DNA from: an uncultured Bacteroidales bacterium
GTDB lineage: Bacteria > Bacteroidota > Bacteroidia > Bacteroidales > UBA932
DNA length: 64,000 nt
NCBI GenBank assembly: GCA_944322575.1
Contig: CALUPK010000005.1
Coordinates: forward strand, 41,323 to 105,322
Direction of reading: 5' to 3'
The notes beneath the pieces were generated by a model. It searched no databases, was not told the origin of the DNA, and saw only the letters and a program-made list of their open reading frames with translations. Both the position numbers and the translations under genes were made by a program. This document shows positions 6,339 through 62,657 of the stretch, piece after piece (within the stretch, counting starts at the first letter, position 1; every line of letters starts with the position of its first letter).

Positions 6339-6659
6339 TTCTTATTGATAACCTGTTTATATCTTTTTATAAGTTTTTTTCTTTTTTTAAAAACCCTGTA
6401 TACAGGACGGGTTTTCAACATTTCAAAATTATTACGGATAAACTTTTAAAAAGTTTTTAAATACTTGTCAACAATTTATTGTCAAAAATTTTTTTCGCAA
6501 CAAAATTATTAAGATTTGACAAAATTACTGATATTCCGATGCTTTTTTTGAAGTATCTTTTTTAATTACAGATTTTATCAACATATCAACAAGCATAAAT
6601 AACAATCAAGTCTATTTTTAAAAAGTATCTTTATATTTGTATTCTGTTTATGAAAATGT
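6339..6659. other. AT-rich divergent intergenic region mfd/ruvB
   Basis: This 321-bp gap is the only gene-free stretch above 300 bp. It is strongly AT-rich with many A and T runs. On the minus strand it carries three copies of TAATTTTG (seen as CAAAATTA on plus at 6424-6431, 6501-6508 and 6520-6527), any of which could be an mfd -7 box, though such matches are expected by chance in so AT-rich a region. The plus-strand ruvB box is listed separately. One near-match to a DnaA box (6575-6583) is present but not a cluster. No ORF, tRNA or hairpin terminator is convincing. Confidence 0.5.
6632..6639 (+). promoter_or_regulatory. ruvB promoter -7 box (TATATTTG)
   Basis: Exact match to the Bacteroidota primary-sigma -7 consensus TAnnTTTG. 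It lies 20 nt upstream of the ruvB ATG, leaving a leader of roughly 14-16 nt. A clear -33 TTTG element is not visible at the 19-21 nt spacing; there is a T-rich run instead. Confidence 0.6.
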
Positions 6660-7688: not shown

Positions 7689-8812
7689 AAGTCCTGATGA
7701 CAGCAGATGCACGCAGTGTGCATACAAAGAGATGGGCGGCGTCATTGAAGGCTTCAGGTGTGGATGTGGCAGTGTATTCACTGTATCCTGCCTCTGATAC
7801 TTTTTTTGAAGAGCACGACATAAGACTGTATGTATTCAATCTCTTCACATACAAGTCAAATAAAGGACTGAAGGCAGCTTTAGGTGCTGTAGTCATGCAC
7901 TGGAGGGCTGTGTCTGATCTCAAGACTGTGTTGAGGGTAGAGTCTCCTGATATCCTGCATGCTCATTATGCGACGAGTTTCGGATTAGTGGCAGCTCTTA
8001 CGGGTTTTCATCCATTTATCATATCGGTATGGGGAAGTGATGTCTATGAGTTTCCATATCTGTCTCCTGTAAACATGAAGGCCGTAAAGTTTATTATGGA
8101 TAAGGCTGACCGTGTACTTTCAACAAGTTTCGCGATGGCTGTACATACATCAGCTTTTACAGATAAAATGATTGATATCACTCCGTTTGGAGTAGATACG
8201 GCTCTGTTTAGAAAAATTGATGACTGTAGTCTGTACGCTGACCGTCAGTTTGTAATAGGTAATGTGAAGACATTGGCACCCAAATACGGTATCGATGTAT
8301 TGATAAAGGCTTTTAAAATCTTACGTGAAAGGAACAGAACACTGTCTCTTAAATTAGTGATAGTAGGTGACGGACCGTGCAGGAATGATTATGTGAGTCT
8401 CGTAGAAGAACTTGGACTGTCAGATGAGGTGGAGTTTGTGGGGAGGGTTCCTAACAATGAGCTTCCGCGGTATTACAATTCATTTTCAGTCGCAGTATCA
8501 CTGTCACGGAGTGAGAGTTTCGGAGTAGTGGCGGTGGAGGCAATGGCTTGCGGATGTCCTGTCGTTGTATCTGATACAGACGGATTCAAAGAGGTCGTAA
8601 TGGATCGGGTAACAGGTTTTGTGGTTCCAGTTGACGAGCCGGAAATTGCTGCTGTAGCCGTGCAGAAATTCATAGATGATCCTACATTACGAGAAAGAAT
8701 GGGCAATGAAGGTATCCGTCATGTAAAGGAAATGTACTCGTGGGATGAATGTGTTTCAAAAATGATAAGTATCTATTCAGATGTCAGAAAGTCTAAAGGC
8801 AAAAACAGCTAA
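7685..8812 (+). CDS. Glycosyltransferase family 4 (GT-B fold)
   Basis: Transfers a sugar from a nucleotide-sugar donor, probably during surface polysaccharide or O-antigen synthesis at the inner face of the cytoplasmic membrane. 375 residues with the two Rossmann-like halves of GT-B enzymes: an N-terminal half with '[14 protein letters not shown]', '[11 protein letters not shown]' and a C-terminal half with 'VIVGDGP' and the donor-site signature '[18 protein letters not shown]' (EX7E type). The ATG overlaps the ruvB stop (ATGA). The next gene, a flippase, overlaps this one by 32 nt, which ties the two together. Donor and acceptor sugars cannot be inferred. Confidence 0.9.
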
Positions 8813-10250
8813 AGGAGTAGGGTGGGGATTTGCGGAGAATATCCTCGGTTCGGGCATATTGGCTCTTGCCAATATAGTCCTGGCACGTATTCTGTCACCT
8901 TCAGACTTTGGAATCATAGGTATGACTACTATTTTTCTTACCTTATCAACATCTTTGGTAGACAGTGGTTTTACAGGAGCTCTAACAAGAAAGAAGGATG
9001 TATGCAATGCTGATCTCAATACAGTTTTCTATTTTAATCTCCTTGTAAGTGCAGTTCTTTATGCTCTTTTATATCTCTGTGCGCCTGCTATCTCGCGTTT
9101 TTTCTCACAGGATATCCTGATACCTGTAATCAGGATTCTCAGTTTGTCTCTTATTGTCAATGCTCTTGGAATAGTTCAGAAAGTACTTTTTGTCAGGCGT
9201 TTGGATTTCCGTACGCAGGCATGGATATCACTCAGTGCGTCAGTTACATCAGGAGTTCTTTCTATAGTGGCTGCAATATCAGGTTATGGAGTGTGGAGTT
9301 TAGTAATTCTTCAACTTTCCCGTCTGACTGTCAATTCACTTCTCTTGTGGATAGTCTCAAGCTGGCATCCAGGTTTTGGATTTTCGCTCAAAAGTTTCAG
9401 GGAGATGTTTTCATTTGGAGGAAGGCTACTTCTAACTTCGATAGTCAGTACGCTGTGGAGTGAGATGTATTCATTTATCATAGGCAAGATGTATACGCCG
9501 TCCACCCTCGGTCAGTTCTCCAGGGCAGAGAAAGTAAAAGGTATGGTTACATCCAATGTGAGTATGGTCATGCAGAGGGTGAGCTATCCAGTGCTGGCTT
9601 CTATTCAGGATGAACGGCAGAGACAGTGTCATGTCTACCGTAAGGTTTTAAAAACAACAGTCCTTATATCATTTACAGCAGTATCCGGGCTTTGGGCCAT
9701 AGCAGGTCCTTTTATGGTTACAGTATTCGGTAATCAGTGGATTACAGCTGTTGATTACCTGAGGATTCTATGTCTTTCAGGACTTTTTCTCCCTTTGATG
9801 ATATGCAGCGCAAATGTGCTCAATGCAGACGGGCGATCTGATATCACCCTTGTCTTAGAGATAATTAAGACTCTCATGGCCGGAATACCGGTTATTTTCG
9901 GAATATTTTTCAGTATTGAAGCCCTTCTGTGGTCTATGGTCGGTACTTATGCCATCTTATATACCGTACATGCTGTTTATGTATCGAAGATTGTATCATA
10001 TAGTGTTTTATCACAGATTAAGGATATTCTTCCTGTTTTTGCAGTGTCTGCAGTGATGGCCTTCTGTGTTAATCTTCTTAATGGTCTCGACCTCGCTCCA
10101 TGGCTGCTTCTGTTAATTCAGCTTGTTACCGGTGCTGTCATCACTGTTCTGATTTATGAGCTGGTATATAAGAATCAGGAGTATCGTGATATAAGAGATG
10201 AACTGTTCAAACAGCTAAGAAAACTGATATGTCGAAAGAAGTCTCTATAG
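8781..10250 (+). CDS. Polysaccharide flippase, Wzx/MATE-like (lipopolysaccharide biosynthesis protein)
   Basis: Predicted to flip lipid-linked oligosaccharide units across the cytoplasmic membrane. 489 residues with about 12-14 hydrophobic segments spread over the whole length and the usual opening of the family: a short basic N-terminus, then 'GVGWGFAENILGSGILALAN', then 'LSPSDFGIIGM' near residue 40. It starts 32 nt inside the GT4 gene, an unusually long overlap but with no suitable later start, and it overlaps the next GT2 gene by 22 nt. The block GT4-flippase-GT2 is small, so the remaining sugar-assembly genes must be elsewhere. Confidence 0.9.
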   Translation: MSESLKAKTAKGVGWGFAENILGSGILALANIVLARILSPSDFGIIGMTTIFLTLSTSLVDSGFTGALTRKKDVCNADLNTVFYFNLLVSAVLYALLYLCAPAISRFFSQDILIPVIRILSLSLIVNALGIVQKVLFVRRLDFRTQAWISLSASVTSGVLSIVAAISGYGVWSLVILQLSRLTVNSLLLWIVSSWHPGFGFSLKSFREMFSFGGRLLLTSIVSTLWSEMYSFIIGKMYTPSTLGQFSRAEKVKGMVTSNVSMVMQRVSYPVLASIQDERQRQCHVYRKVLKTTVLISFTAVSGLWAIAGPFMVTVFGNQWITAVDYLRILCLSGLFLPLMICSANVLNADGRSDITLVLEIIKTLMAGIPVIFGIFFSIEALLWSMVGTYAILYTVHAVYVSKIVSYSVLSQIKDILPVFAVSAVMAFCVNLLNGLDLAPWLLLLIQLVTGAVITVLIYELVYKNQEYRDIRDELFKQLRKLICRKKSL

Positions 10251-11044
10251 TAATAGTCAATTACAACACGGGAAATCTCCTTCTCAACTGCCTTCAAAGC
10301 ATCAGGACGGCACTTACTGTCGATTATGAGGTCATCGTGGTAGACAATGCGTCCTCTGATACTTCAGTCACGCAGTGCGCGGATTTTTCCTTGGATTCAC
10401 GTTTTATCTTTCTAAAGCAGCCTTCCAATTATGGATTTGCCAAGGCCAACAATATAGGTGCCGCACGTTCTGCAGGCCGTATACTTCATTTTTTAAATCC
10501 TGACACAGAAGTCAGTCCGGATCTCAATGCTGATTATGAGTACGCGCTTGAGTTTGACAATATGGTTTATGTCAATCCTCTGCGCAATCCAGACGGTGCT
10601 GTGGAGAACAGACCGATGCCCCTGCCCATTATAAGAGATATGGTTTTATGGTATGTTTCGAGGAAGAAAGCAAGGGTATGGTACAGAGGTGCGTCAGTGA
10701 TGATATCGAGAGACAATTTCTATAAAATAGGTGGATGGTCTGAGGATTATTTTATATATGCTGAGGACCTTGACCTGTTCTATTCATTGTGGCGTTCCGG
10801 CATTCAAGTATGTCTGAGGGGTTCAGAGATATTCCATTTAGGCGGAGGCAGCAGTTCACAGAGGTGGTCCAGTCTTGAGCGCGAAGTAGTTGTACAGCGT
10901 TCAGCCCGTATTTTCTATAAGAAGTATTTCTCTGAATATCAGTATGTTGCCATAAAGATTTATTTTCTTTTCCATTACCTCATCAAAAATCCCCGCAGGG
11001 TTCCCCGTGATATCCGTGCATGGAGGTTAAGCAGTAAGCGCTGA
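10229..11044 (+). CDS. Glycosyltransferase family 2, rhamnosyltransferase-like
   Basis: 271 residues, GT-A fold. The N-terminal nucleotide-binding strand reads 'VSIVIVNYNTGNLLLNCL', followed by 'VVDNASSD' and the metal-binding 'FLNPDTEV' (DXD equivalent, Asn-Pro-Asp) near residue 90. Later come 'RGASVMISRDNFYKIGGWSEDYFIYAEDLDL', with the acceptor-side Glu-Asp, and a basic C-terminus. This arrangement resembles WbbL-type rhamnosyltransferases, but the donor cannot be fixed. Last gene of the ruvB-GT4-flippase-GT2 run; it overlaps the flippase and is followed by the frdA promoter. Confidence 0.9.
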   Translation: MSKEVSIVIVNYNTGNLLLNCLQSIRTALTVDYEVIVVDNASSDTSVTQCADFSLDSRFIFLKQPSNYGFAKANNIGAARSAGRILHFLNPDTEVSPDLNADYEYALEFDNMVYVNPLRNPDGAVENRPMPLPIIRDMVLWYVSRKKARVWYRGASVMISRDNFYKIGGWSEDYFIYAEDLDLFYSLWRSGIQVCLRGSEIFHLGGGSSSQRWSSLEREVVVQRSARIFYKKYFSEYQYVAIKIYFLFHYLIKNPRRVPRDIRAWRLSSKR

Positions 11045-11047
11045 AAG

Positions 11048-11080
11048 TTTTGCAAAAGTGCTGAAAAGTGAGTAAAATTG
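11048..11080 (+). promoter_or_regulatory. frdA promoter (-33 TTTTG, -7 TAAAATTG)
   Basis: A TTTTG element (11048-11052), then exactly 20 nt, then TAAAATTG (11073-11080), one mismatch from TAnnTTTG. Spacing and both elements fit the Bacteroidota -33/-7 promoter. Transcription would begin near 11085, giving a leader of about 24 nt. It separates frdAB from the upstream polysaccharide genes. Confidence 0.6.
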
Positions 11081-11108
11081 CACCAAATTTTAATTCTATT
11101 GATACATT

Positions 11109-13055
11109 ATGGAGGATAAGTTAATTTCCAAAGTACCCGAAGGTCCTTTGGCTGAAAAATGGACTAAGCATAAAGCCGCAATCCGTGTAGTCAGCCCTGC
11201 CAATAAGAGAAAGCTCGACATTATCGTTATCGGCACAGGCCTCGGCGGTGCATCCGCAGCCGCCACTCTCGGTGAACTCGGTTATAATGTCAAGATTTTC
11301 TGCATCAGCGACTCTCCCCGCCGCGCCCACTCTATCGCAGCTCAGGGAGGTATCAACGCCGCCAAGAACTATCAGAATGACAATGACTCAGTGTACCGTC
11401 TCTTCTACGACACCATCAAGGGAGGCGACTACCGCAGCCGTGAGGCCAATGTCTACAGGCTTGCAGAGGTCAGCAATCTGATTATTGACCAGTGCGTTGC
11501 ACAGGGCGTTCCTTTCGCACGTGACTACGGCGGACTGCTCGACAACCGCTCCTTCGGAGGCGCTCAGGTAAGCCGTACATTCTATGCCCGCGGTCAAACC
11601 GGGCAGCAGCTCCTCCTCGGTGCCTACGCTTCCCTGAACCGTCAGATCGCAAAGGGTACGGTGAAATCCTATCCCCGTCATGAGATGCTTGAGCTCGTGG
11701 TCATCAACGGCGAAGCCCGCGGTATCATCACCCGCAATCTCGTAACCGGCGAGATAGAGCGTTTCGGAGCCCACGCTGTAGTGCTGGCTTCCGGAGGATA
11801 CGGAAACACTTATTTCCTCTCAACCAATGCCATGAACTCAAACGGTTCAGCCGCATGGCACTGCTACAAGAAGGGCGCTTACTTTGCAAATCCCTGCTTC
11901 GCCCAGATTCACCCGACCTGTATCCCCGTACACGGTGACCAGCAGTCCAAGCTGACCCTGATGAGTGAGTCCCTCCGTAATGACGGACGTATCTGGGTTC
12001 CCAAGAAGATGGAGGATGTCAAGAAACTCCGTGCAAAGCAGATCAAGGGCTCTCAGATTCCTGAGGAAGACCGTGACTACTATCTCGAGCGCAGATATCC
12101 CGCATTCGGTAATCTCGTTCCCCGTGACGTGGCGTCCCGCGCCGCTAAGGAAAGGTGTGATGCCGGATATGGTGTGAACGAGACAGGACTCGCAGTGTTC
12201 CTCGATTTCTCCTCTGCTATTCAGAGACTCGGAAAGGATGTCATTACAGCCCGTTACGGCAACCTCTTCCAGATGTATGAGAAGATTACAGGCGTTAACC
12301 CTTACGAGGAGCCTATGATGATATATCCCGCCATCCACTATACCATGGGCGGTATCTGGGTAGACTACAACCTCCAGACCACCATCCCCGGACTTTATGC
12401 CATCGGTGAGGCCAACTTCTCCGACCACGGCGGTAACCGTCTCGGTGCATCAGCCCTCATGCAGGGTCTTGCTGACGGATATTTCATCCTCCCTTACACC
12501 ATCGGAGACTATCTGTCGCATAAGATTCAGGAGCCCAAGGTCAATACCAATACTCCTGAGTTCGACGAGGCTGAGAAAGCCGTCAAGGAGCGCATCAACT
12601 ACTTCATCAACAACAAGGGTACACAGCCTGTTGACTACTACCACAAGAAACTCGGACACATCATGTGGGAGAAAGTAGGTATGGCCCGTGACAAGAAGGG
12701 TCTCGAGGAGGCTATCAAGGAGATTCACGACCTCCACGCTGAGTATGTGAAGGATGTGTATGTACCCGGTTCCAATGATGAGTTCAACCAGGAACTTGAG
12801 AAGGCACTCCGTGTCGATGACTTCTTCGAAATCGGCGAGCTGATGGCACGTGACGCTCTCAACCGCAACGAGTCCTGCGGAGGTCACTTCAGAGTAGAGA
12901 TGCAGACAGCTGACGGTGAGACTCTCCGTGATGACAAGCACTACCAGTATGTCAGCGCATGGGAGTATGCCGGAGAGGGCAAGGAGCCTATTTTCCACAA
13001 GGAAGACCTTGTATTTGAATTTGTTAAGCCTTCAACACGTAACTATAAAGACTAA
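11109..13055 (+). CDS. frdA: Fumarate reductase / succinate dehydrogenase flavoprotein subunit
   Basis: Catalytic subunit that carries covalent FAD and interconverts fumarate and succinate; in anaerobic Bacteroidales it acts mainly as fumarate reductase at the inner face of the membrane. 648 residues. FAD-binding '[21 protein letters not shown]' is near residue 38. The flavinylated His region '[18 protein letters not shown]' and the substrate-site segment '[10 protein letters not shown]' follow. '[11 protein letters not shown]' and '[21 protein letters not shown]' are typical of the Bacteroides-type enzyme. Codons are strongly biased to C-ending, suggesting high expression. Followed 14 nt later by frdB. 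No membrane-anchor (frdC/sdhC) gene precedes it: the upstream neighbour is a glycosyltransferase. Confidence 0.96.
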
Positions 13056-44140: not shown

Positions 44141-47100
44141 TCAGAAAGTGGACTTGAGGAAGTCCTGCAGTGTATTGCTGTACTTTTCTGCTTTTTCAGG
44201 GTCTCCAGCGTAGAGAGCCTCGATGCCGTAATGGTAGAGCTGGATGTTGCTCTCCAAGTCAATCTGAGAGAGAACCGTCCCCTTATATGGCTGTGCAAAG
44301 AGTCTGATAGCCTGCATGGTCTCTTCTAAGAAACGGTCTGCCATGGCTATGCCTTTGTCTTTCTGTCCGCATTTGATGTACAGGTCGATGGCGTGGATTA
44401 CCATCATCTCGTTGACATACTGTACGGCCGCAGAGCTGTTGTAGGGGAAGTTCCGGTCGGGGAAGGTTTCTTCCATCCGGTCGAGTATCTGTACGGCTTT
44501 GTCTTTCTCGCCTTTGTTGAACAGAGCGATGGCTGTCTGTACGAAGACAAAGCGCTGGGAGGCCACGCCGTTGAAGGTTGACAGGTTCTGGTAGTCTACG
44601 AAGAAGTCTTTCGAGAAGCTGTCATAGTGGAAGACGTTCATGATGCGGTCGTACATTCTGTCCGTGTCTATCTGGTTGATTTCGGTCAGAGTGGTGCGGC
44701 TCTTGATAGGTACGAACTTGTATGCGTATCCGTCGAACTGGAGGTAGTCCCTGATACCTATCTCGAGAGCGCCGCCCTGAGTGAAGAAGTAGATAGGACG
44801 GTCCCACTCATAGGTGGAGAGCATATCGAGAATCATAAGCTCTGTCTTCTCGAGGAAATTCTTGCCCTCAGGCAGGTTGAGGTACACCGTGTCGAGCATC
44901 TTGTCAGCATCATTGGGGGATACAATACCGTGTTTCAAGGCATTTTCCCTGTTCACAGGTATGGCAAGGCAGCGTGAGGCGAGATAGCTTTCCTGACGTC
45001 CGTAGATATTGACTTTTACTCGCGGATCGTTGAAAAGAGCGATTGCGTCACTGAGCAGGATGGGGCGGTTGAAACGGTCGATGATGTGGACGTAGTCGTT
45101 GGTGCCGTAGAGGTAGTTGATGCGGGGTGTGGTAAAATGTATAGGCTCAGCATCGTACTGCTTCCACTGCATCTGGTCTATGTACCAGTCGATGCCGAGG
45201 AGGGAGGTGTTCATCACCCTTGCGTCTAAGCGTACGCCCTCCACTTCCTGGATGTACCACAGGGGGAAGGTATCGTTGTCTCCGTGAGTGATAAGGATTG
45301 CCTGAGGGTCGGTGGACATGAAGTAGTTGTAGGCCATGTCGCGTACTGTGTAGCGGTTGCTGCGGTCATGGTCGTCCCAGTTCTCGAAGGCCATCAGCAA
45401 AGGTACTTGGAACAGCAATACAAAAACCACAATCGCCGTAGACTGCTCGGAAATTATTCTGGAAGCCGGCTTGCGCAGCCAGTCGTACACGGCCAGCACG
45501 GCCAGTCCTATCCATATCGAGAACATGTAGAACGAGCCGGCATAGGCGTAGTCGCGCTCGCGGACCTGATAAGGAGACTGGTTGAGGTACAGGATGATGG
45601 CTATGCCTGTGAGGAAGAACAGCAGGAAGGTGATCCACCAGTTGCGCTTGTCCTTGCCCAGCTGGTACAGAAGGCCGATGATGCCGAGCAGAAGAGGCAG
45701 CATATAGTAGTGGTTCTTGCCCTTGTTGTTCACTATGTAGTCCGGTCCCTCGCTCTGGTCTCCGAGCCTGGCGCGGTCGATGAACCCGATACCGCATTCC
45801 CAGTTGCCTCTCAGAGGGTCTCCGGGAACCTGACCGTGGATATCATTCTGACGGCCGGCGAAGTTCCACATGAAGTAACGCATGTACATGTAGTTGAACT
45901 GATAGTCGAAGAAGAACTTCAGGTTGTCCCCGAAAGTAGGCATCTTCTCGTCAGTGCCGGGGATGGCTTTGCCGCGTCCCTGGGTGTAGCTCTTGTAAAA
46001 GCGGATATGCGAGGGGTCCTTGCTGTGCATTCTCGGGAAGAACATCTTGCTCTCAGAGGGGTAGATTACATCTATGGGGCTGGGAGCCTTGATGTAGCGG
46101 TCTCCTAATTTAGTATGATATGAGGATTCCTTGTAGTCAGTGTATACGGATGCATAGGTCTGTCCGTAGAGCAGGGGGGCACTGCCGTACTGCTCGCGTC
46201 CGAGATATTTGACTAGAGCGAAGGGGTTGTCAGGCTGTCCCTCGTTGGTGGGGGTGTTGTTGGCCGAGCGGATGACTACCATCGCGAAAGCGGAGTATCC
46301 GATGACTATCATCGTGAAACTCAGCAATGCTGTGTTCAATATGGGTTTGTCCTTCTTGCGGGTGTAGTACACTGCCCAGAAGCAGAGCGCGAGCAGAACT
46401 ATTACGAAGAATGCTGCTCCGGTGTTGAAAGGCAGGTGGAATACATTTACGAAAAGCAGGTCGAATACAGCGGCAATCTTTGGCAGGTAGGGGATGATGC
46501 CCCAGAGTATCACGGCGAGAATGACTGCCGAGAGGACAAATACTCCGATGCAGCCCCAGGTTGTCACTTTGGAGGCTTTCTTATAGTAGTAGACGAATGC
46601 TATAGCGGGGATGACAAGCAGGTTGAGCAGATGTACTCCTATCGAGAGTCCCATCAGGAAGGCGATGGCCACAATCCATCGGTCCGCGTATTCGCTGTCT
46701 GCCTGTTCCTCCCATTTCAGAATCATCCAGAACACGGCCGCGGTAAATAGGGAGGACATGGCGTAGACCTCGGCCTCCACGGCGGAGAACCAGAAAGTAT
46801 CGGACCAGCAGTAGGCGAGGGAACCTACAACACCGGCTCCAATAAGGGAGAGGGCTTCTCCCATGGAGAGGGTACCTGTGCTGCCGTTCTTTTCAATTAT
46901 GCGGCGTCCTAAATGTACGATGGTCAGATACAGGAAGAAAATAGTGAATGCGGAGCAGAGGGCGCTCATGATATTGACCGCCATAGCCGCATGTTCGGGG
47001 GAGGCGAACATGGTGAAGAAGCGGGCAATCATCTGGAACACGGGGTTGCCTGGTGCGTGTCCCACCTCTAATTTATAGGAAGAGGCGATAAACTCACCGC

Positions 47101-47212
47101 AGTCCCAGAAACTGACTGTGGGTTCTATTGTCAATAAGTATGTGATGGAAGCGGTCAGAAGGACTATGACCGAAAAGATGCGGTTGAAGAAAGTAAACTT
47201 TTTCTGCTCCAT
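44141..47212 (-). CDS. DUF2723 membrane protein (glycosyltransferase family 117, GT-C-like)
   Basis: 1023 residues. The N-terminal half has about 11-13 membrane segments and opens with the DUF2723 signature 'YLLTIEPTVSFWDCGEFIASSYKLEVGHAPGNPVF', whose acidic Asp-Cys-Gly-Glu loop resembles the catalytic first loop of GT-C enzymes. The C-terminal half (about 600-1023) is soluble, with 'HGDNDTFPLWYIQEVEGVRLDARVMNTSLL' and TPR-like helices at the end. Family members are proposed to act in protein or envelope glycosylation in Bacteroidota. Single-gene unit; its promoter is back-to-back with that of the SUI1 gene. The stop abuts the stop of the LuxE-like gene. Confidence 0.9.
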   Translation of the reverse strand: MEQKKFTFFNRIFSVIVLLTASITYLLTIEPTVSFWDCGEFIASSYKLEVGHAPGNPVFQMIARFFTMFASPEHAAMAVNIMSALCSAFTIFFLYLTIVHLGRRIIEKNGSTGTLSMGEALSLIGAGVVGSLAYCWSDTFWFSAVEAEVYAMSSLFTAAVFWMILKWEEQADSEYADRWIVAIAFLMGLSIGVHLLNLLVIPAIAFVYYYKKASKVTTWGCIGVFVLSAVILAVILWGIIPYLPKIAAVFDLLFVNVFHLPFNTGAAFFVIVLLALCFWAVYYTRKKDKPILNTALLSFTMIVIGYSAFAMVVIRSANNTPTNEGQPDNPFALVKYLGREQYGSAPLLYGQTYASVYTDYKESSYHTKLGDRYIKAPSPIDVIYPSESKMFFPRMHSKDPSHIRFYKSYTQGRGKAIPGTDEKMPTFGDNLKFFFDYQFNYMYMRYFMWNFAGRQNDIHGQVPGDPLRGNWECGIGFIDRARLGDQSEGPDYIVNNKGKNHYYMLPLLLGIIGLLYQLGKDKRNWWITFLLFFLTGIAIILYLNQSPYQVRERDYAYAGSFYMFSIWIGLAVLAVYDWLRKPASRIISEQSTAIVVFVLLFQVPLLMAFENWDDHDRSNRYTVRDMAYNYFMSTDPQAILITHGDNDTFPLWYIQEVEGVRLDARVMNTSLLGIDWYIDQMQWKQYDAEPIHFTTPRINYLYGTNDYVHIIDRFNRPILLSDAIALFNDPRVKVNIYGRQESYLASRCLAIPVNRENALKHGIVSPNDADKMLDTVYLNLPEGKNFLEKTELMILDMLSTYEWDRPIYFFTQGGALEIGIRDYLQFDGYAYKFVPIKSRTTLTEINQIDTDRMYDRIMNVFHYDSFSKDFFVDYQNLSTFNGVASQRFVFVQTAIALFNKGEKDKAVQILDRMEETFPDRNFPYNSSAAVQYVNEMMVIHAIDLYIKCGQKDKGIAMADRFLEETMQAIRLFAQPYKGTVLSQIDLESNIQLYHYGIEALYAGDPEKAEKYSNTLQDFLKSTF

Positions 47213-50155: not shown

Positions 50156-50381
50156 GGGTCTGAGGAAAGTGCTCATTTTCCCTTTCGTCTTTCTTATACG
50201 GTTCTATCAGCTGTGCATATCACCGTATAAGCCGGCATCATGCCGTTTTACGCCTACTTGCTCGGCCTATGCCCTCGAGGCTTTCCGCAAGCACGGCCCC
50301 GTCAAGGGACTGTATCTCTCAGTACGCCGGATTCTCAGATGCCATCCATGGGGAGGAAGCGGCTACGATCCTGTGCCGTAG
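50106..50381 (+). CDS. yidD: Membrane protein insertion efficiency factor YidD
   Basis: 91 residues. The signature '[33 protein letters not shown]' followed by '[24 protein letters not shown]' is complete, including three conserved Cys and an amphipathic N-terminal helix. It supports YidC-dependent insertion at the inner membrane. It begins inside rnpA, and its end overlaps the convergent acyltransferase gene by 19 nt. Confidence 0.93.
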
Positions 50382-52159
50382 AATCTGTCGATAAGCCCCT
50401 CCGGATCATCGCTTCCCTTGGTCAGCATTTCTATCTCGCTGCGGGGGACCAATGCCATGTCTAAGAATATCATTCCGTCCACGCAGTAGTTGAATTCACG
50501 GTCTACATTGAAGGCCAGAATCTCTGCCTGGAGCTTGACATATTTCTTGATGAGGGTCGGAATACGGTAGCGTCCGTCGCTCAGCCGCTGGATATACTTG
50601 TCAAAATAATCTATGCTCTCTAACCTGTTCTCGAGCAGCAGAGCGGGATCGACTCTCAGAAAGTCGTACTTGAAAGGAGTTCTCGGAATGACATAACCTT
50701 TGTGGGCCTGAGGAGTGAACTTTGTGAGCCCATATACTATCAGGCTCCTGTAGAATGGAGGAAGCCAGCTTGTTATGCTCGCCGGGCCGAAGAGGTACTT
50801 GCAGTCTTTGTATCTAAGTACAGTGTAAAACAGCCCTTTGATAAGCAGCATCAGGGGCAGGGCTTCTTTTTTATACTCGACGGAGAGGAAAGAGCGGCCG
50901 AGCTCGATGCATTCAGGGAGTATGGAGCAGAAGTCATCAGAGTATCTGAACAGAGTGTGCGTGTAGAATCCTTTCACTCCGTATTTCTCATAGATCTCCC
51001 TGCCTATACCGAGACGGTATGCCCCGGCAAGCTGACAGGCATCCTTGTCCCAAAGAATGAGGTGCTTGTAGTATAGGTCGAATGAGTCGGTGTCGATACT
51101 TGCACCGGTGCCTTCTCCTACCTGTCTGAAAGACTCTTCCCTGCGGCGGCCGATTTCCTGCATCATGTAGGGTATCTGATCTGTGCCGGCTAAAAAGCAC
51201 TGGTACTTGTGCGCTTCAAAAAGGGGAGTGAGTGCCTCCATCTCTTTCTGCAGCGCAGACGTGGGGACAGGCGGCAGAAGCGGTTCCTGTGCTCCGGAGG
51301 CCTGTTGGCGGGGCTCGTTGCGGGGTACATTGGCCTCCATGGCGTATACCCTGTTTCTAAGCATTTTCCCGAGTTCGTTAGGATTGCTGAACTTTGCGGC
51401 CTCCTGAGCAGGTATGGGCTTGCCGATGCGCATGGTGACTGTCTTGCCGCTGCGGCGGATAAGCTCATTGGGCAGATTGAGCGTCCTTAGCACAGGGTGT
51501 ATCCTTCCCACTAAATGGAACCAAGTGGAGTTAGTTCCGTCGAAATATACGGGCACCACCGGGACCTTGCTCGTGCTTACGAGTTTCATGACCGTGTGTG
51601 TCCATTCTTTATCGGTAGTGTATCTGCTTCCTTTGTATTTGGTGGATACCTCTCCGGCAGGGAATATTCCCACGCAACCTCCGTTTTCGAGGGCTTCTTT
51701 GGCGGCTTTCAGTCCAGGGTAGCTGCTGCGCAGCTTCTTGTTGTCAGAAAACGGGTTGACGGCCAGAAAGCTGTCCCGGAGATTGGGTATGAAGGAGAGA
51801 ATGAAATTGGTCAGAATCTTGAACTCCGGTCTCACGGCGGCAACAGTGTTGTAGAGCACGATGCCGTCCCATCCCCCGAAAGGGTGGTTGGACACAATGA
51901 TAAAGGGGCCCTCCTTGGGGATATACTCCACTTCCTCCGGCAGGATGTCGGTGGAGATGCGGAAAGTCTTCATCGCCTCTTTTGTGAATTCCCTGCCGTG
52001 AAATGCTCCGAACTGAGAGTAGAGCCGGTTGATGCGGTTCAGTCCCATCAGTGACATGGCGCACGATGCAATCAGGGAACCGAACGGCCCTTTGAGGCCG
52101 GCCGCCTTACGGATATCCGATTTATTAATTAACTTTGTGCCTGAGTTGTTAGTGTTCAT
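50363..52159 (-). CDS. Bifunctional O-acyltransferase / N-acyltransferase (OlsF/GlsF-like aminolipid synthase)
   Basis: 598 residues. N-terminal PlsC-like domain with '[15 protein letters not shown]' (His-x5-Asp form seen in this subgroup) and '[14 protein letters not shown]', about 85-290. A Pro/Gln-rich linker follows near 290-310. The C-terminal GNAT-like domain (PF13444, OlsB/GlsB type) has '[24 protein letters not shown]', '[15 protein letters not shown]' and '[11 protein letters not shown]'. Together they would make a di-acylated ornithine or glycine lipid: first N-acylation, then O-acylation. I chose the ATG at 52159; an earlier in-frame codon lies on the -7 box. The ATG is 2 nt from the uvrC ATG. 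Confidence 0.85.
52130..52137 (+). promoter_or_regulatory. uvrC promoter -7 box (TAACTTTG)
   Basis: Exact TAnnTTTG match, 24 nt before the uvrC ATG. It lies inside the coding region of the divergent acyltransferase gene. Confidence 0.6.
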
Positions 52160-52161
52160 AT

Positions 52162-53994
52162 ATGACGAAACATCCTGCAAATATAAATATTATTTTGAAA
52201 ATGCTTCCCCACAGTCCAGGCGTATACCGCTTCTTAGACTCATCGGGAACCGTCATATACGTAGGAAAGGCAAAGGATCTTAAGAACCGGGTGTCACAGT
52301 ATTTCCGATCCGGCGGTCTGAACCGCAAGACTCAGGTCATGGTTTCCAAGATATCTGACATACAGCATACTGTGGTTGGCTCGGAGTCAGATGCCTTCCT
52401 TCTTGAGAACAACCTTATCAAGCAGTTCCAGCCTCGGTACAATATCCTTCTCAAGGACGGCAAGACCTATCCCTGGATTTGTCTTAAGAATGAGAAGTTT
52501 CCCCGGGTAGTCGTCACCCGCCGTTTTGTGCGTGACGGCTCAAAATATTTCGGGCCTTACAGCTCGGCCATGCACGCCCATAATCTGCAGGCTCTGATAA
52601 GCTCTCTTTACAAGCTGAGAACGTGTAATCTGTCAATAACGGACGATGGTATTGCTAAAGGTAAATACAAGGTATGCCTTAATTATCATCTCGGTAAATG
52701 TGCGGGGCCTTGTGCCGGAAAGATGAGTGAACAGGAGTACAATGCGCAGGTGGAGGCAATCGTTCAGATACTAAAGGGCAATTCGTGGTCCCTGATTAAG
52801 GATTTTGAGCGGAGGATGAAAGAAAGTGCGGCAGCCCTGCAGTTTGAGGACGCCGAGGTGTGGAAAGAGAAGATGGAACTCCTTGAGAAGCATTATGCCC
52901 GCTCACTTATTGTCAATGCAAGGGGTATCAATGTCGATGTCTTCTACATCATATTTGAGGGACAGGATGCTTTCGGCAGTTTCCTGAGAGTCCACGACGG
53001 AGGTATCATACAATCCATGAATATGGAAATCAAGATGAGGATAGAGGAAAGGGAGACGGAGGTGCTCGGCTCGTTCATATCCGGAATTTACGGGAAGCTG
53101 CAGGATTTTGAGGGTGCGGGGGAGAGACCTTCGGAGATAGTGGTTCCTTTTATGCCCGATATGCCAGAAGCCCTGCCTGGAGTAATATTTACTGTTCCGG
53201 AAAAGGGAGACCGTCTTGCTCTTTTGGAGCTTGGCCGCAAAAATGCCGCAGCCATCAAGTTTGAACGTCTCCGTCAGGAGGAGTTTGTCAATCCAGAAGA
53301 ACATTCCCAGCGTGTCGTTGAGAACCTCCGCAGAGACCTCGGAATGGATATGCCCCCGACTCACATCGAGTGTTTTGACAACTCCAATATCCAGGGCACC
53401 AATCCGGTGGCCTCATGTGTAGTGTTCCGGAACGGAGCTCCGTCAAAAAAGGATTACCGGCATTTTAACATCAAGACTGTGGTGGGTGCAAATGACTTCG
53501 CGTCGATGAAGGAGGTTGTCAACCGCCGTTATACCCGAATGATGGCAGAAGGAGAGGAGCTGCCTCAACTGATAGTTATAGACGGCGGCCGCGGTCAGGT
53601 CAATGCCGCGTACGAGGCGCTGGATGAGATAGGCCTTATCGGCAAAGTGAAGCTTATAGGACTTGCCAAGCGTATGGAGGAAATCATAGTCCCGGGAGAT
53701 CCTTATCCGCACTTTATCGACCGGAACTCCACATCCCTGAAAGTGCTGATGCACATACGTGATGAGGCTCACCGCTTCGGCATCACCCATCACCGCAACC
53801 GGCGCAGCGCGTCCTCCTTGGTTTCCGAGCTGGACAATATCCCAGGTGTAGGTGCAGTGAGCCGTGAGAAACTCGTGGCAAAATACAAGACAGTGTCCAA
53901 AATCAAAAAGGCACCTTACCGGGAGGTTGTCAATGTTATCGGCAAGCGTGCAGCCGATGCTCTTTTCGGGTGGTTTGCGTTAGATAAGTCTTAG
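52162..53994 (+). CDS. uvrC: Excinuclease ABC subunit C
   Basis: Makes the two incisions beside a UvrB-bound lesion. 610 residues. N-terminal GIY-YIG nuclease 'LPHSPGVYRFLDSSGTVIYVGKAKDLKNRVSQYF' (about 15-48), UVR coiled coil near 200-235 ('LQFEDAEVWKEKMELLEKHY'), RNase H-like nuclease with 'IECFDNSNIQGTNPVASCVVF' and 'LIVIDGGRGQVNAAYE', and C-terminal helix-hairpin-helix ('LDNIPGVGAVSREKLVAKY'). The ATG at 52162 fits the promoter; a second Met at 52201 is a possible alternative. The stop overlaps the convergent gene by 4 nt. Confidence 0.96.
   Translation: MTKHPANINIILKMLPHSPGVYRFLDSSGTVIYVGKAKDLKNRVSQYFRSGGLNRKTQVMVSKISDIQHTVVGSESDAFLLENNLIKQFQPRYNILLKDGKTYPWICLKNEKFPRVVVTRRFVRDGSKYFGPYSSAMHAHNLQALISSLYKLRTCNLSITDDGIAKGKYKVCLNYHLGKCAGPCAGKMSEQEYNAQVEAIVQILKGNSWSLIKDFERRMKESAAALQFEDAEVWKEKMELLEKHYARSLIVNARGINVDVFYIIFEGQDAFGSFLRVHDGGIIQSMNMEIKMRIEERETEVLGSFISGIYGKLQDFEGAGERPSEIVVPFMPDMPEALPGVIFTVPEKGDRLALLELGRKNAAAIKFERLRQEEFVNPEEHSQRVVENLRRDLGMDMPPTHIECFDNSNIQGTNPVASCVVFRNGAPSKKDYRHFNIKTVVGANDFASMKEVVNRRYTRMMAEGEELPQLIVIDGGRGQVNAAYEALDEIGLIGKVKLIGLAKRMEEIIVPGDPYPHFIDRNSTSLKVLMHIRDEAHRFGITHHRNRRSASSLVSELDNIPGVGAVSREKLVAKYKTVSKIKKAPYREVVNVIGKRAADALFGWFALDKS
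52178..52185 (-). promoter_or_regulatory. Acyltransferase promoter -7 box (TATATTTG)
   Basis: Exact TAnnTTTG match on the minus strand (seen as CAAATATA on plus), 18 nt before the ATG at 52159 and inside uvrC codons 6-8. It supports 52159 rather than a more upstream start. Confidence 0.6.
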
Positions 53995-56990
53995 TTGAAA
54001 GATACGTCAAACAGAAGTCCGAAATAGTTCTGAGAGCCTGTCTGCGGGCCAGTGCGGGCATACCGAATACCCACACTGAGAGGAAAGTTGAGCCGTAATG
54101 CGATGAAGTCCACTTTCAGATCAGCTCCATACGAGTAGTACTGCCGCATGGCTCCGCTGCCGTATTCCGTCCCCATGGCATAGTCTCCGAATGGAATAAG
54201 CTGCAGGCGCTTGAGATAGAGCAGGGGGCCGATGCTTACGTCCCCTAAGTAGACAGGAACCGCATAGTCGAGAGAGACGCTTCCGAAACACTCGTCAAAG
54301 CTGTATCCGGAATATCCTCTCGGAAGTATTGTGAATGAGCTCATGTACAGCTTACCGTCTACGAACTGTTTTTGGGCGGCAAAGCCGATTCTTATACCCT
54401 GCTGGTGCGTGATGCCGGGCAGATAGGCGTATCCGGAAGCATAGGCCACGTGTCCGAAATAATCACGGGAGTTGACGGTAGAACTTCCCTGCAGGGAGAT
54501 TCCGAATCCCCAGCGCGGGTAAATCTGGGATGTGGCTATGGACAGATTCTGTGAATAGGAGATGCCGTACACCAGCTGATGTCTCATGATAGGAGTTCCG
54601 GTGGTTTGCTGGATGCTTCCATCGCTGAAATTGTAGGAGAATGCGTAATACCGGTCATTGTTGAAGGTCCATGAGATATATGGGGTCAGTCCGCGATACC
54701 ACCCGCGGCTTGTGAAATTCATAGGATAGTAAACAGTTGCATTGGCCGCTACATAGGGAGTTCCGAGGTTCTCCTTAGAGAACTGGTGGCCGAGTACGGC
54801 GTCATAGGAGTTGTCGCGGGAGTTACGTTCATTGATGTCTATCCCAAGTTCTATACTTAAATTGCCGAATATATCTGCAACCATCGTAAAATGACCGGAA
54901 TGGAAGTATTTCCAGGTATAGAAATCCCGCACATATCCATAGCTGAGGCTTGAAGTGATGTTGCCTAAGCTGTTTTGCGACAGTAGTGTGGCTCCGAGTG
55001 AGGCGGTCTGCGTGAAATTCTGGAATGTGAATGACATCAGCCGGTCCATGTTGACGTAGACGGGGAACCAGGAATGTATCCGGAATGCATGCAGGAACTT
55101 GGAGTATCGTTTTGAAGGGTATTTCTCCGGATCAAGAATATCCGGATCCGCGCAGTCAGTGCTGTCGCCGGTGTCCTGAAGTTTTTTAAAATGTCCTTCG
55201 CTCTGGCGTGACAGCATCTCTGCGACGGGATGCCGGTACGGATTAGAAAAATCGGCCGGAATCTGCAGCAGCCTCTCTGGCGTGGAACTTACAGGGCGGT
55301 ATCCTTTCAGTCCGTATTCGCAGTAATATACTCTGCGGCCTGTAGGGTCGTAGTACGGATAGTCGGCACCGTATTCTGAGTTGGTCATGCGCAGCAGGGT
55401 GCCGCTGTCTATGTCATACCGATAGATGTTGAGTACGCCGTTGAGGTCGCTGGAGAAGTAAAGGCTGCGGCTGAATATTTTCAGACCGGATATGCTCTGT
55501 CCCTGCGGGGAGATTATCTCCGACCATTTTCCTTCTCGGTAAAGGAAGATTCCGATACCGCCGTCCTGTATGACAGAACAGTAGATATCCTTTCCGTCGA
55601 ATACTGTCTCACGTACCTGTCCGTTGCCGGGTGCCTTTATGCGTTCTATGACTTCTCCGTCTCCGGCATGAACTAACGTCAGCCATGTGCCGCCCTCTAC
55701 CGGATATTCAGCTACGGCGACTGTATCTCCGGTAGGAGAAGGCGCCGGGTTGAAGTACTTGGTCCTGTGTTTTTGAGAAGTGACCCTGCCGGTAACTACA
55801 TCAAATCTCATGATGACAGAGAAATCCTCTAAGTCCGCCGCCTCATTCGACACCGGTTCGGTCCAGTATATGAACCGTTTTCCATCGTATGTCAGGCGGG
55901 ATGACGTATAGCTGAAGAACCTTATGAAGCGCTCGCGTCCGGAACTGTCGATGCTGACCATCTTGCGGGCAGTTTCCATGCCGCTTTTCAGCATGATGAC
56001 AGAGCCGTTCCAGGGTGAGTCTCCGTTGTGAATGTAAATGGGGTCGGTAAATTCGGTATACAGCCTGTCCGGCCTGTTCTTCAGATTGTCAGATTCGGTA
56101 AACTTTCCTCTTGAGAGATAGTCGTAGCGCCACATCTCGCTGAGCAGGCCCTGTGACCGTTCCAAAATACTGAATCTGGATTCTCCGATAAGTTTCTTCC
56201 CGGGGTCAAGAAGAAGCGGCAGGCTGTACCAGTGCTTTACAGGAGTTCTGAAATACTTGCCGCAATAATCTGCCAGTCCTGTCTGGTATCTTACATAGCT
56301 TCCGAGTGCGTAGCCGAACACATAGGCGTTCGGGGTGTAGTGTCTGAAAGAACCGAACTGCAGCTTGTCCCAATTCCTGAAATCCCCGTTGATATACATG
56401 GCTCTCAGGTATTTGGTAAAGTCGGCATTGCGCCCACGTCCACCGTTGGTGAGCTCTGTCTCGGCTATGACGGCGTCTCCTTCCATGGCGTATCTGTTGG
56501 CAAAGAGGCCGACGCCTATGCCTGTGACCTGCTCTCCGAGAAGATAGTAGAATACATTGTAGATACCTCTGGTAAAATGTTCCACCTGACCCACATGTCT
56601 CGACTCATGTATGCTCAGGTGCTGAATCCACGGGTCCGGGTTGCTGCCGTACGGGTCGGGGGAGGTGAAAAGCTCCATTCTCTTCGGGGCCCATGTTACG
56701 ACTCCGTTGCTTTGAGTGATATACGGGTGCAGTACCACCGGTATGGGTCTTGGGTCAATATTGAGTTCTGCCATGACTCTTGGCCTTACTTTCTCGAGGG
56801 TGTACAGGTAAAGGCGTGCGATGGAGTCTGTCTCTTCAGGATATATCAGCCGGTAGTGTTCGGATGTGATGGTGCGCCAACGGGCCCTTCCGGGGTCATT
56901 GCCCAATGTATAGTACTGGCCGTAGACTGCAGTCCAGGACAGGGTAAGCAGCAGGATGGCTATTAAAAAAGGTTTAGTCAAGTGCAACAT
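53991..56990 (-). CDS. Outer-membrane protein with gluzincin-type peptidase domain, beta-propeller and beta-barrel
   Basis: 999 residues from the ATG at 56988-56990; the upstream frame lies in the promoter. Signal peptide 1-25 ends Val-Tyr-Gly-Gln. The peptidase-MA-like domain (about 35-330) has zinc motif His-Glu-Ser-Arg-His at 128-132 and a candidate third ligand Glu170 in 'YAMEGDAVIAETEL', 38 residues after the second His, as in gluzincins. PD40/TolB-like propeller strands cover about 340-620 ('GKRFIYWTEP', 'SSDLNGVLNIYRYDIDSG', 'YYDPTGRRVYYCEYG'). The C-terminal 330 residues are a barrel with strands such as 'LGATLLSQNSLGNITSSLSYGYV' and end in Phe-Asn. Substrate unknown. Catalytic activity is inferred, not certain. 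Confidence 0.82.
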   Translation of the reverse strand: MLHLTKPFLIAILLLTLSWTAVYGQYYTLGNDPGRARWRTITSEHYRLIYPEETDSIARLYLYTLEKVRPRVMAELNIDPRPIPVVLHPYITQSNGVVTWAPKRMELFTSPDPYGSNPDPWIQHLSIHESRHVGQVEHFTRGIYNVFYYLLGEQVTGIGVGLFANRYAMEGDAVIAETELTNGGRGRNADFTKYLRAMYINGDFRNWDKLQFGSFRHYTPNAYVFGYALGSYVRYQTGLADYCGKYFRTPVKHWYSLPLLLDPGKKLIGESRFSILERSQGLLSEMWRYDYLSRGKFTESDNLKNRPDRLYTEFTDPIYIHNGDSPWNGSVIMLKSGMETARKMVSIDSSGRERFIRFFSYTSSRLTYDGKRFIYWTEPVSNEAADLEDFSVIMRFDVVTGRVTSQKHRTKYFNPAPSPTGDTVAVAEYPVEGGTWLTLVHAGDGEVIERIKAPGNGQVRETVFDGKDIYCSVIQDGGIGIFLYREGKWSEIISPQGQSISGLKIFSRSLYFSSDLNGVLNIYRYDIDSGTLLRMTNSEYGADYPYYDPTGRRVYYCEYGLKGYRPVSSTPERLLQIPADFSNPYRHPVAEMLSRQSEGHFKKLQDTGDSTDCADPDILDPEKYPSKRYSKFLHAFRIHSWFPVYVNMDRLMSFTFQNFTQTASLGATLLSQNSLGNITSSLSYGYVRDFYTWKYFHSGHFTMVADIFGNLSIELGIDINERNSRDNSYDAVLGHQFSKENLGTPYVAANATVYYPMNFTSRGWYRGLTPYISWTFNNDRYYAFSYNFSDGSIQQTTGTPIMRHQLVYGISYSQNLSIATSQIYPRWGFGISLQGSSTVNSRDYFGHVAYASGYAYLPGITHQQGIRIGFAAQKQFVDGKLYMSSFTILPRGYSGYSFDECFGSVSLDYAVPVYLGDVSIGPLLYLKRLQLIPFGDYAMGTEYGSGAMRQYYSYGADLKVDFIALRLNFPLSVGIRYARTGPQTGSQNYFGLLFDVSFN

Positions 56991-60489: not shown

Positions 60490-61695
60490 ATGAAGTCAGA
60501 CAGTTCAAAGATTACCAAAGGCGTAGGCTTCCAGCGCGGGGTCTACGCCTTTTGCCGTACATTCGTAGGCCCTTTCGTCAACATTATCCTGCATATCACT
60601 TATAAACCCTGCAAGGTGAAGAGCCGCACTTTCCTGTGCCTGGGCAACCACACCCAGAACCTCGACCCCGCCCTGATGGTCATCGGCACCCGGAGGCACA
60701 TGCGCTTCGTGGCCAATGCCTCCCTGACCCGGGGCATTGCAGGATTCTTCCTCAACCCCCTCTTCGGCATTATCCCCCGGGAGAAGGGTGCCAAGGGAGA
60801 TGCTGCCATTGCCCTGATAGAGGACAATCTGAGGGCAGGCGTCTCCGTGGGAATGTTCCCCGAGGGCAACCGCAGCTGGGACGGGGAGACTGAGTACATC
60901 TCACCCCGCACCGCCGCCTTAGTTAAGGATACGGGCGTGGCCCTGCTGACCTACCGCCTCACAGGCGGGTATCTGCTTAAGCCGCGATGGGCCGATCACA
61001 AGCGGAGGGGGCCGATGCGGGGGGAATTGGTCCATGAATACACTCCGGAGGAAATATCCCGCATGACGGTCGAGGAGGTCTATGCCGCCATCTGCCGGGA
61101 CCTGCGGGTCAATGCCTATGAGGAGCAGGCCGCTTCGGGAGCTCTCTACCATGGGAAGGCGCTGGCCGAGGGGCTGCAGTACGCCGCCTACCTCTGTCCG
61201 CACTGCCTCCGTTTCGGCACCGTGGAGACGCGGGGCAACTGGCTCACATGCAGCTGCGGCCTGACGGCCAAATATTTAGAGACCGGTTCGTTCGAGAAGG
61301 GGATGTACATGCCTTTCGACAATTTTGCCGAGTGGAACCGCTTCCAGAAGCGCTGGGTGCATGAGCACTGCGCGGAACTGCGGCAGCAGACCGAGGAGCC
61401 GATAGTCCACGACGACGGCTGCTTCAAGCTGACGTTGAAAAAGGACGGCGTCTTCACCCACTTGTCCGACAAAGCTTCTGTGGCCATGTGTGGCGACCGT
61501 CTGGAACTTTCATACGAGGGACACCACGAGGTCTTCCGCATCGGGGATATAACCGGATACGGCACCTTCCTGTCCCGCTCGATGTACTTCAACTGCGGGC
61601 CTTCGCTTCGCTACCAGCTCATTGCTACCAAGCCGGTATCCACGCTGAAATACTACGCTCTCTGGCGCGGTCTTTCCGGCCGGGAATACCTTTAG
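60490..61695 (+). CDS. PlsC-type acyltransferase with C-terminal zinc ribbon
   Basis: 401 residues. The PlsC domain at about 45-205 has the catalytic motif 'NHTQNLD' (His54-x4-Asp59), 'FVANASLTRGIAGFFLNPLFGIIPREKG' and 'MFPEGNRSWDG' (acceptor-phosphate binding). After it, a zinc-ribbon-like Cys-x2-Cys at 236-239 and Cys-x-Cys at 254-256 open a C-terminal extension that ends in a beta-rich segment ('FKLTLKKDGVFTHLSDKASVAM'). The extension is unusual for 1-acyl-glycerol-3-phosphate acyltransferases. The acyl donor may come from the ligase encoded 5 nt upstream. Exact acceptor unknown. Confidence 0.87.
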   Translation: MKSDSSKITKGVGFQRGVYAFCRTFVGPFVNIILHITYKPCKVKSRTFLCLGNHTQNLDPALMVIGTRRHMRFVANASLTRGIAGFFLNPLFGIIPREKGAKGDAAIALIEDNLRAGVSVGMFPEGNRSWDGETEYISPRTAALVKDTGVALLTYRLTGGYLLKPRWADHKRRGPMRGELVHEYTPEEISRMTVEEVYAAICRDLRVNAYEEQAASGALYHGKALAEGLQYAAYLCPHCLRFGTVETRGNWLTCSCGLTAKYLETGSFEKGMYMPFDNFAEWNRFQKRWVHEHCAELRQQTEEPIVHDDGCFKLTLKKDGVFTHLSDKASVAMCGDRLELSYEGHHEVFRIGDITGYGTFLSRSMYFNCGPSLRYQLIATKPVSTLKYYALWRGLSGREYL

Positions 61696-62657
61696 AGTCT
61701 TTCTAACTGGAGCATCAGCATGTTCGGGGAGATATCCTTGAACAGGATTTTCTTATCCCTGTCGAGCAGGTAGAGGGAGGGGATGGCGCGGACGTCGTAG
61801 ATGAGGGCATCGCGGATGGTCAGGTCCTGATTGTAGCCGGTAATCCACTCTTCAGGATAGTCGGACAGGCCCTTGAACCATTCGGCCACGTCCTCGTCGA
61901 TGTAGATGCTCAGCAGGGTCATGCGGCCGTCCCGCACCATGGAGTTGATCTGGGGGCTGTCTTTCAGCAGGGAGATAATCCCGCGGCAGGCAGGGCAGCC
62001 AGGATTGGAGAAGAGCAGCAGGGTATATTCGCCCGGCGTGCCGTAGAGGCTGTGCGGACGGCCCTTGGCGTCGGTAAATGTGAAGTCGGCGGCAGGGGTG
62101 CTGGGACTGTTGTTCAGGCAGGTGGTCAGCTGCTGCTGATAGTAGGCGCTGTAGTGTTCCCCGGTGCGTCTGGTCCTCAGTATGCTCTCGATGACAGGTA
62201 TGTAAAGCCCCTCGTTGCGCAGCTCCGACAGGGGATTCCACAGGGCGGATTCCATGGTGGCGGTGAACCAGTCGTAGATGTGTCCGCTGGTGTCCCGTTC
62301 TATGGATGTCTCCGCTAAGGACATCAGATGTGTCTGGGCTTTGAAAGCCCGGTCGTAGGGTATGGACCAGAGGGCGAGAAGATACTCGCGGACGGCAGCT
62401 GTCATGTCCTCCTGTCTTACTCCGCCGATGAGGGTGTCGGAGATGCCGGCCCATGCTGCGGTGGAGTCGAAATATCTGTTCCAGAAATGTTCCGCGGCGT
62501 ATTCCGCTGCGTCCTGGCCGGACAGCATGGCAGGTACGGAGACAGCGGGGAAGGGCTTAGACCCGCGTTGCCCGGTCTCATTATGAAAATTACACCCGCT
62601 GATGAACAGGGGTGTAATTGTCAAAAAAAGTAAAGTTATGAAAAAAGATTTTGTCAT
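61692..62657 (-). CDS. DUF5106-thioredoxin-like lipoprotein
   Basis: 321 residues. Lipobox Phe-Ile-Ser-Gly-Cys places the lipidated Cys near residue 22. The central helical region (about 45-190) matches the DUF5106 family of Bacteroidota. The C-terminal thioredoxin-like domain has 'LLLFSNPGCPACRGIISLL' (Cys-x2-Cys), a cis-Pro in 'VRAIPSLYLLDRDKKILFKD' and the usual strand order. Predicted periplasmic thiol-disulfide role; DsbD in this window could be its reductant, an inference. The ATG lies 7 nt after the mature 3' end of tRNA-Gln on the same strand, so its transcript must include or border the tRNA. Confidence 0.88.
   Translation of the reverse strand: MTKSFFITLLFLTITPLFISGCNFHNETGQRGSKPFPAVSVPAMLSGQDAAEYAAEHFWNRYFDSTAAWAGISDTLIGGVRQEDMTAAVREYLLALWSIPYDRAFKAQTHLMSLAETSIERDTSGHIYDWFTATMESALWNPLSELRNEGLYIPVIESILRTRRTGEHYSAYYQQQLTTCLNNSPSTPAADFTFTDAKGRPHSLYGTPGEYTLLLFSNPGCPACRGIISLLKDSPQINSMVRDGRMTLLSIYIDEDVAEWFKGLSDYPEEWITGYNQDLTIRDALIYDVRAIPSLYLLDRDKKILFKDISPNMLMLQLERL

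Follow-up and report, generated by a model that had tools for sequence, protein, structure and literature searches.

We identify, in the genome of an uncultured Bacteroidales bacterium, a protein that we read, with a probability of about 50%, as a zinc peptidase anchored in the outer membrane by an Omp85-like barrel, which would act on the periplasmic side and cut envelope proteins. The domain order, the conserved site, the gluzincin and TolB folds, a barrel of 16 strands that is probably of Omp85 type and the near-universal presence in the organism's family are supported by sequence and structure modelling; zinc binding and cleavage, the periplasmic topology, the substrate class and a role in quality control or processing are what we infer. 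The original prediction had proposed a gluzincin zinc site, followed by a propeller and a C-terminal outer-membrane barrel, and this order of parts is upheld by the sequence and by the structure model of the whole chain (pTM 0.90 over 999 residues).

The whole gene occupies 53991..56990 on the minus strand of the window (the entire 64,000-nucleotide stretch of DNA analysed; protein features below are all on that strand) and encodes 999 residues plus a stop from an ATG start; an alternative GTG start at 57047, 57 bases upstream of the ATG, would add 19 residues. A search at E ≤ 1 found a single match to the window protein in its own genome. Conservation was assessed in two alignments, with the N-termini of relatives placed by a simple Met rule: A1 contains the window protein and its 28 best-scoring full-length relatives from a whole-protein search (29 rows from 29 of 30 loci, one incomplete row having been dropped; 31–60% identical), and A2 contains the window protein and 78 of 80 loci (79 rows; L035 and L052 were dropped for odd length), its counts being partly selected because EGDAV was part of one of its two seeds. 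The chain begins with a signal peptide at residues 1–24 (56919..56990; helix 2–17, low pLDDT at 16–25), presumably cleaved before Gln25 in the manner of the Bacteroidota Q-rule, and this glutamine is present in 29/29 rows of A1 and 77/79 of A2, the remaining two being gaps. It is followed by a gluzincin-fold domain (residues 26–296; 56103..56915), a TolB-like beta-propeller (297–575; 55266..56102), a linker with a helix at 588–606 in the structure model (576–637; 55080..55265) and a 16-strand outer-membrane barrel (638–999; 53994..55079), the last assigned from model strands, Foldseek and hhalign.

The candidate zinc site, recognised in the sequence, the alignments and the model, consists of HESRH at residues 128–132 (56595..56609), on a helix spanning 121–140, and Glu170 (56481..56483), the candidate third zinc ligand, which lies on a helix at 166–180 and opens an EGD motif (170–172) 38 residues past His132. 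Shuffling the protein 20,000 times with its composition preserved gave any HExxH in 365 cases and an HExxH with E[GSA] 33–38 residues further on in 25; on these figures and the conservation in A1, a chance motif was rejected. H128, E129, R131, H132, E170, D172, A173, E177, R185 and R187 are invariant in the 29 rows of A1 and again in all 79 of the partly seeded A2, where G171 joins them; in A1, two rows have EA or ES at that point. Across all family loci, H128, E129, H132 and E170 are intact in 140 of 145 rows (a set in which some genes, present in two collections, are counted more than once), changed in four and missing from one fragment without the region. Of the 57 positive family genomes, the 56 that were read all carry at least one copy with an intact site (the match in the 57th, G026, has no N-domain). 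The site is likewise kept in 17 of 20 weaker family matches (28–36% identical) and lost in three. The gluzincin zinc-site pattern named in the original prediction thus stands, and the survey of homologs that it proposed found that most have not lost the motif.

Ahead of the active-site helix lies a conserved strand (residues 100–108; 56667..56693; model strand 103–108), with W100 kept in 76, P102 in 79 and R104 in 77 of the 79 rows of A2, which is a candidate for the substrate-binding edge strand. Two further motifs occur in this domain. GRGR (residues 184–187; window 56430–56441) follows the glutamate helix and possibly takes part in substrate binding; R187 is present in 79/79 rows of A2 and 20/20 weaker rows, and R185 in 79/79 and 17/20, being lost in the three site-less copies. 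Asp55-Ser56-Ile (residues 55–57; window 56820–56828), whose first two residues are kept in 29/29 rows of A1, may fit the Bacteroidota O-glycosylation sequon, given as D(S,T)(A,L,V,I,M,T) in the available text of its description (PMC4604654), and could equally be a helix cap.

Structure comparison places the predicted N-domain fold among the gluzincins, with resemblance to Peptidase_MA_2 (PF13485) and to M30, M1, M9 and M61 enzymes, in line with the peptidase-MA/M1 comparison that had been suggested as a check. With these families the window-protein family has in common the fold and the HExxH...E site, whereas the HExRH, EGDA and GRGR signatures are peculiar to it. No scanned member reaches the PF13485 model, which found no match in the window protein or its own genome, nor, at E ≤ 10, in any of 79 N-domains. 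Searches of the N-domain and barrel against Pfam, NCBIfam and PDB sequences gave no informative match; for the window protein, Pfam returned a sub-threshold PD40 (17 bits, cut-off 20.9) and one chance-level match, and NCBIfam returned TolB far below its cut-off (21.2 bits of 343, E 1.2e-4). The family N-domain profile matches the N-domains of a sister type marked by HEFTH (described below) at 1.2e-13, and one HEFTH protein (L147) exceeds the PF13485 cut-off (34.7 vs 32.4).

The predicted propeller was also recovered, as a clear beta-propeller in the model that is closest to TolB. TolB, BamB and BamI (the last a surface lipoprotein of the Bacteroidota BAM) have propellers of the same fold, but the propeller of the window protein differs from theirs in being fused in one chain with a peptidase and a barrel. 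Propellers filled the whole-model VIA-align list, which therefore says nothing of the barrel.

The C-terminal transmembrane barrel that had been proposed appears in the model as 16 strands running from residue 638 to 996, and it is probably Omp85-like, an assignment that has good but indirect support from the strand number, an RG motif, an aspartate and a stepwise profile link through sister types. The Omp85 pattern comprises an RG(F/Y) motif in loop 6 and an Asp in strand 13. In the window protein, alignments and model place PRGY (residues 890–893; 54312..54323) in the loop that joins strands 11 and 12, which we take to be the loop-6 position, and Asp936 (54183..54185) in strand 13, presumably a candidate partner of the loop-6 arginine as in Omp85. 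P890 is kept in 76, R891 in 71 and G892 in all 79 rows of A2, and R891 and G892 in 20 and 16 of the 20 weaker rows; Asp936 is kept in 76/79 and 20/20. A simple RG search succeeded in 17/20 Bacteroidia, 6/13 HEFTH and 13/15 HELVH rows, with some matches outside the loop.

Against an Omp85 profile built from 30 rows, taken from the own genome and related ones, hhalign scored the barrel directly at 0.0058 over 68 columns with a probability of 6% (reversed control 0.096). The stepwise route runs from the barrel to the HELVH sister at 3.7e-11 and from there to Omp85 at 5.9e-4 (reversed control 0.0074), and from the barrel to the HEFTH sister at 4.1e-4 over 356 columns (probability 35%) and onwards at 1.5e-12 over 187 columns; Bacteroidia relatives matched Omp85 at 1.1e-4, and FadL, shuffled and reversed controls ranged from 0.0074 to 0.9. 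Foldseek with the whole model listed, among many propeller rows, FhaC (4ql0, 5.0e-5), BamA (4k3c, 8.0e-5) and chain A of B. thetaiotaomicron BamADG (9hiv, taken to be BamA; 9.9e-5), the FhaC and BamA matches having rmsd 7.8–9.4 and target TM 0.32–0.36 in a whole-model search without ranges. The Pfam Omp85 model (PF01103) matched none of 40 whole proteins at E ≤ 1 and none of 79 barrels at E ≤ 10; two other Omp85 proteins in the same genome are over the Pfam cut-off. POTRA is absent, as the model places only 62 residues with one long helix between propeller and barrel, and Omp85 subfamilies without POTRA are described in the available portion of a published survey (PMC4104836). A FadL-type barrel was rejected (hhalign 0.5, with a control alignment of seven rows, three of them over the Pfam cut-off). 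The first barrel strand opens with an HSWxP motif (residues 639–643; window 55062–55076), of which H639, W641 and P643 are invariant in A1 and in the partly seeded A2; P643 is kept in 20 and H639 in 17 of the 20 weaker rows.

The enzyme would lie in the periplasm, because an even-stranded barrel has both ends on one side and because the enzyme domain of PlpD is exclusively periplasmic according to the accessible text of a 2024 study (PMC11116518). Were the peptidase instead to reach the cell surface, passing through the barrel or alongside it in a type Vd-like manner, it might act on host, dietary or cell-surface proteins; many carriers are labelled as gut or faecal MAGs, and an N-terminal enzyme with a C-terminal Omp85 barrel is the order for which secretion was once proposed in PlpD, as far as the available sources go. 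We consider such export unlikely, given the barrel geometry and the location of the PlpD enzyme, a pTM of 0.90 that suggests a fixed unit and a presence in 57/59 family genomes that looks housekeeping. The earlier suggestion that the protein might secrete surface proteins in a new way is not supported, and the nearest characterised analogue keeps its enzyme domain periplasmic in the text available (PMC11116518).

Improbable, too, is a device for peptide or protein uptake, in which the barrel would admit oligopeptides and the periplasmic peptidase would trim them. An enzyme–barrel fusion would suit coupled transport and trimming, and the gluzincin fold class, by what we take its activities to be, covers endo- and exopeptidases; however, we know of no Omp85-like barrel that serves as a nutrient porin, the propeller resembles TolB, a partner-binding protein, and the scanned neighbours are not peptide-utilisation genes. 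The gene sits between uvrC and a Na/Pi cotransporter gene, neighbours that give no functional hint. A protein family scanned as DUF5106 plus thioredoxin-like (in the window at 61692–62657, minus strand) has a member near the gene in 41/81 contexts, window included, though not always adjacent to it. Elsewhere on the minus strand of the window are a fused acyltransferase and GNAT protein (50363–52180), which presumably resembles bifunctional amino-acid lipid synthases of the OlsF kind, and a 1023-residue protein with a TMEM260-like O-mannosyl-transferase domain (44141–47212).

Matches in 57 of 59 genomes of the organism's own family (own genome included) and across the phylum rule out a fusion peculiar to one genome. 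The genome is near Candidatus Coprenecus, and the closest named locus is 76% identical to the window protein. The N-domain profile matches 151 of 395 phylum genomes at 1e-5, with a strong group of 38 phylum-draw genomes, own included (E up to 1.6e-47; the next is 2.1e-27), and HExRH and EGDA occur in 29/29 N-domains read from the other 37. Sampling of the remaining listed matches yielded two sister types, HELVH (14 rows, EG at 33–38) and HEFTH (13 rows, EG at 56), and HExxH and EG are kept in 27/27 sister rows, the 47 distant rows having been hand-picked from N-domain profile matches such that motif-less relatives could be missed. A tree of 57 N-domains (including 10 of the 79 rows of alignment A4, with L150 left out and L231 added) splits the three types at 100/97, 100/99 and 100/100; since genome G092 carries one of each, the three types are old paralogs. 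Loci labelled Tannerellaceae and Massilibacteroides carry the gene, although within the phylum draw none of the five genomes that belong to two other families of the order gave a match. The phage collection searched likewise gave none, and a phage origin was rejected.

A place in the type IX secretion system (T9SS) is highly improbable. SprA is present in 34/38 strong carriers against 302/395 genomes overall, which would favour that reading, but no SprA match was found in the own genome (92% complete, making absence likely rather than certain) or in G060, G327 and G417, and many SprA-positive genomes have no match to the window-protein family. The four strong carriers without an SprA match indicate that T9SS is not required, and an obligate T9SS part was accordingly discarded.

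The four changed copies among the family loci, L233 (G014), L241 (G015), L248 (G022) and the second gene of L069 (a Cryptobacteroides MAG), are full length, keep propeller and barrel, and are each accompanied by an intact partner (L020/L254, L252, L253 and the first gene of L069, respectively). In L069 (genes at 5914–9166 and 9169–12145) and in G022, the intact gene is immediately followed, on the same strand, by the site-less one; in G014 and G015 the pair is on separate contigs. A 43-row tree, in which the 34 other rows are a random draw and L233 is on a long branch, puts the four in three places, with 0% of 200 bootstrap trees uniting them and the L069 and L248 copies as sisters (100/100), giving at least three separate losses of the zinc site. 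That loss is confined to copies with an intact partner (4/4) suggests that activity is needed, and that four full-length copies go without the site means that the scaffold has some use without it; we read this as activity that is kept, on a scaffold that is reusable without that activity. At another locus, L109, two intact family members lie on opposite strands.

The same copies bear on whether the protein is an Omp85-type insertase or translocase, with the gluzincin fold as a binding platform without catalysis. The N-domain structure matches include a TFIID subunit with a gluzincin fold (7edx), which we take to be catalytically inactive. That match, the propeller and barrel kept in four site-less paralogs and the precedent for assembly or translocation that the accessible text of the survey gives for the Omp85 superfamily (PMC4104836) would suit a platform. 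We nevertheless judge it quite improbable, as every lost-site copy has an intact partner and the four site residues are kept in 140/145 family rows, in 29/29 wider relatives and, in equivalent form, in 27/27 sisters.

Our literature search, which covered sources outside subscription papers, found no description of a gluzincin–propeller–Omp85 chain. The original prediction knew of no characterised protein with this order of parts, and the accessible text of the PlpD paper calls the metalloprotease and WD40-like Omp85 groups still not well characterised (PMC11116518). The prediction had missed a print record of a related group dating from 2014, when Heinz and Lithgow described a WD40-Omp85 subfamily with an N-terminal TolB-like propeller and an Omp85 barrel (PMC4104836, available portion). 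It had also missed the probable Omp85 superfamily membership, the three clades across the phylum and the paralogs without the site. Compared by description only, the WD40-Omp85 subfamily is like the window protein in its propeller and want of POTRA and probably in its barrel, and unlike it in that the available text mentions no gluzincin domain (PMC4104836). The 'Metallo' subfamily of the same source likewise has on its Omp85 barrel an enzyme called a metalloprotease, but that domain is PF00149, not a gluzincin, and no propeller is mentioned in the available text (PMC4104836). PF00149 is named Metallophos in Pfam. We take it to be a metallophosphoesterase. Given the Pfam name, the 'metalloprotease' label in the accessible text looks wrong (PMC4104836). 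PlpD, the patatin-like Omp85 protein, also has an N-terminal periplasmic enzyme on an Omp85 barrel, but it is a homodimeric patatin lipase with a POTRA domain and, in the text available, no mention of a propeller (PMC11116518). A Tannerella vesicle 'WD40-like protein' was set aside, since at 54 kDa it falls outside the family.

By analogy, the best functional model may be E. coli BepA, a zinc peptidase that, in the accessible part of its description, acts at BamA and, probably on the BAM complex, either promotes LptD or degrades it. As is proposed here for the window protein, BepA works in the periplasm and has a barrel protein as its target (PMC8423444). The own genome of the window protein also has an M48 peptidase. 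To our knowledge BepA has no barrel or propeller of its own, unlike the window protein. In the mechanism we propose for a barrel-anchored periplasmic peptidase, the chain would be exported by Sec and its signal peptide cut before Gln25, the 16-strand barrel would sit in the outer membrane, and the propeller and gluzincin domain would lie on the periplasmic side. Its substrates would be envelope proteins in an extended or misfolded state, among which barrel proteins or precursors of surface proteins are the most plausible; they would be held by the propeller, lie along the edge strand of the peptidase and be cut at the HExxH/Glu zinc site, so that the protein would be a single-chain counterpart of a BepA-like peptidase beside BamA. 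More tentatively, the three ancient Bacteroidota versions might be self-contained outer-membrane triage machines of one chain each, in which the barrel engages a client (another barrel or a surface-protein precursor) that is held by the propeller and either matured or destroyed by the fused peptidase, with site-less copies present as if active and receptor subunits were paired.

The Bacteroidota outer membrane is loaded with barrel–lipoprotein complexes, and its BAM complex has recently been shown, in the available account, to differ from the known one. This widespread protein is a good candidate for an unrecognised envelope protease, and the natural site-less second copies offer a built-in comparison. 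The WD40-Omp85 group gains a concrete, testable enzymatic hypothesis, and a conserved peptidase carried by an Omp85-like barrel would fill a gap in the picture of how Bacteroidota process or police their surface proteins.
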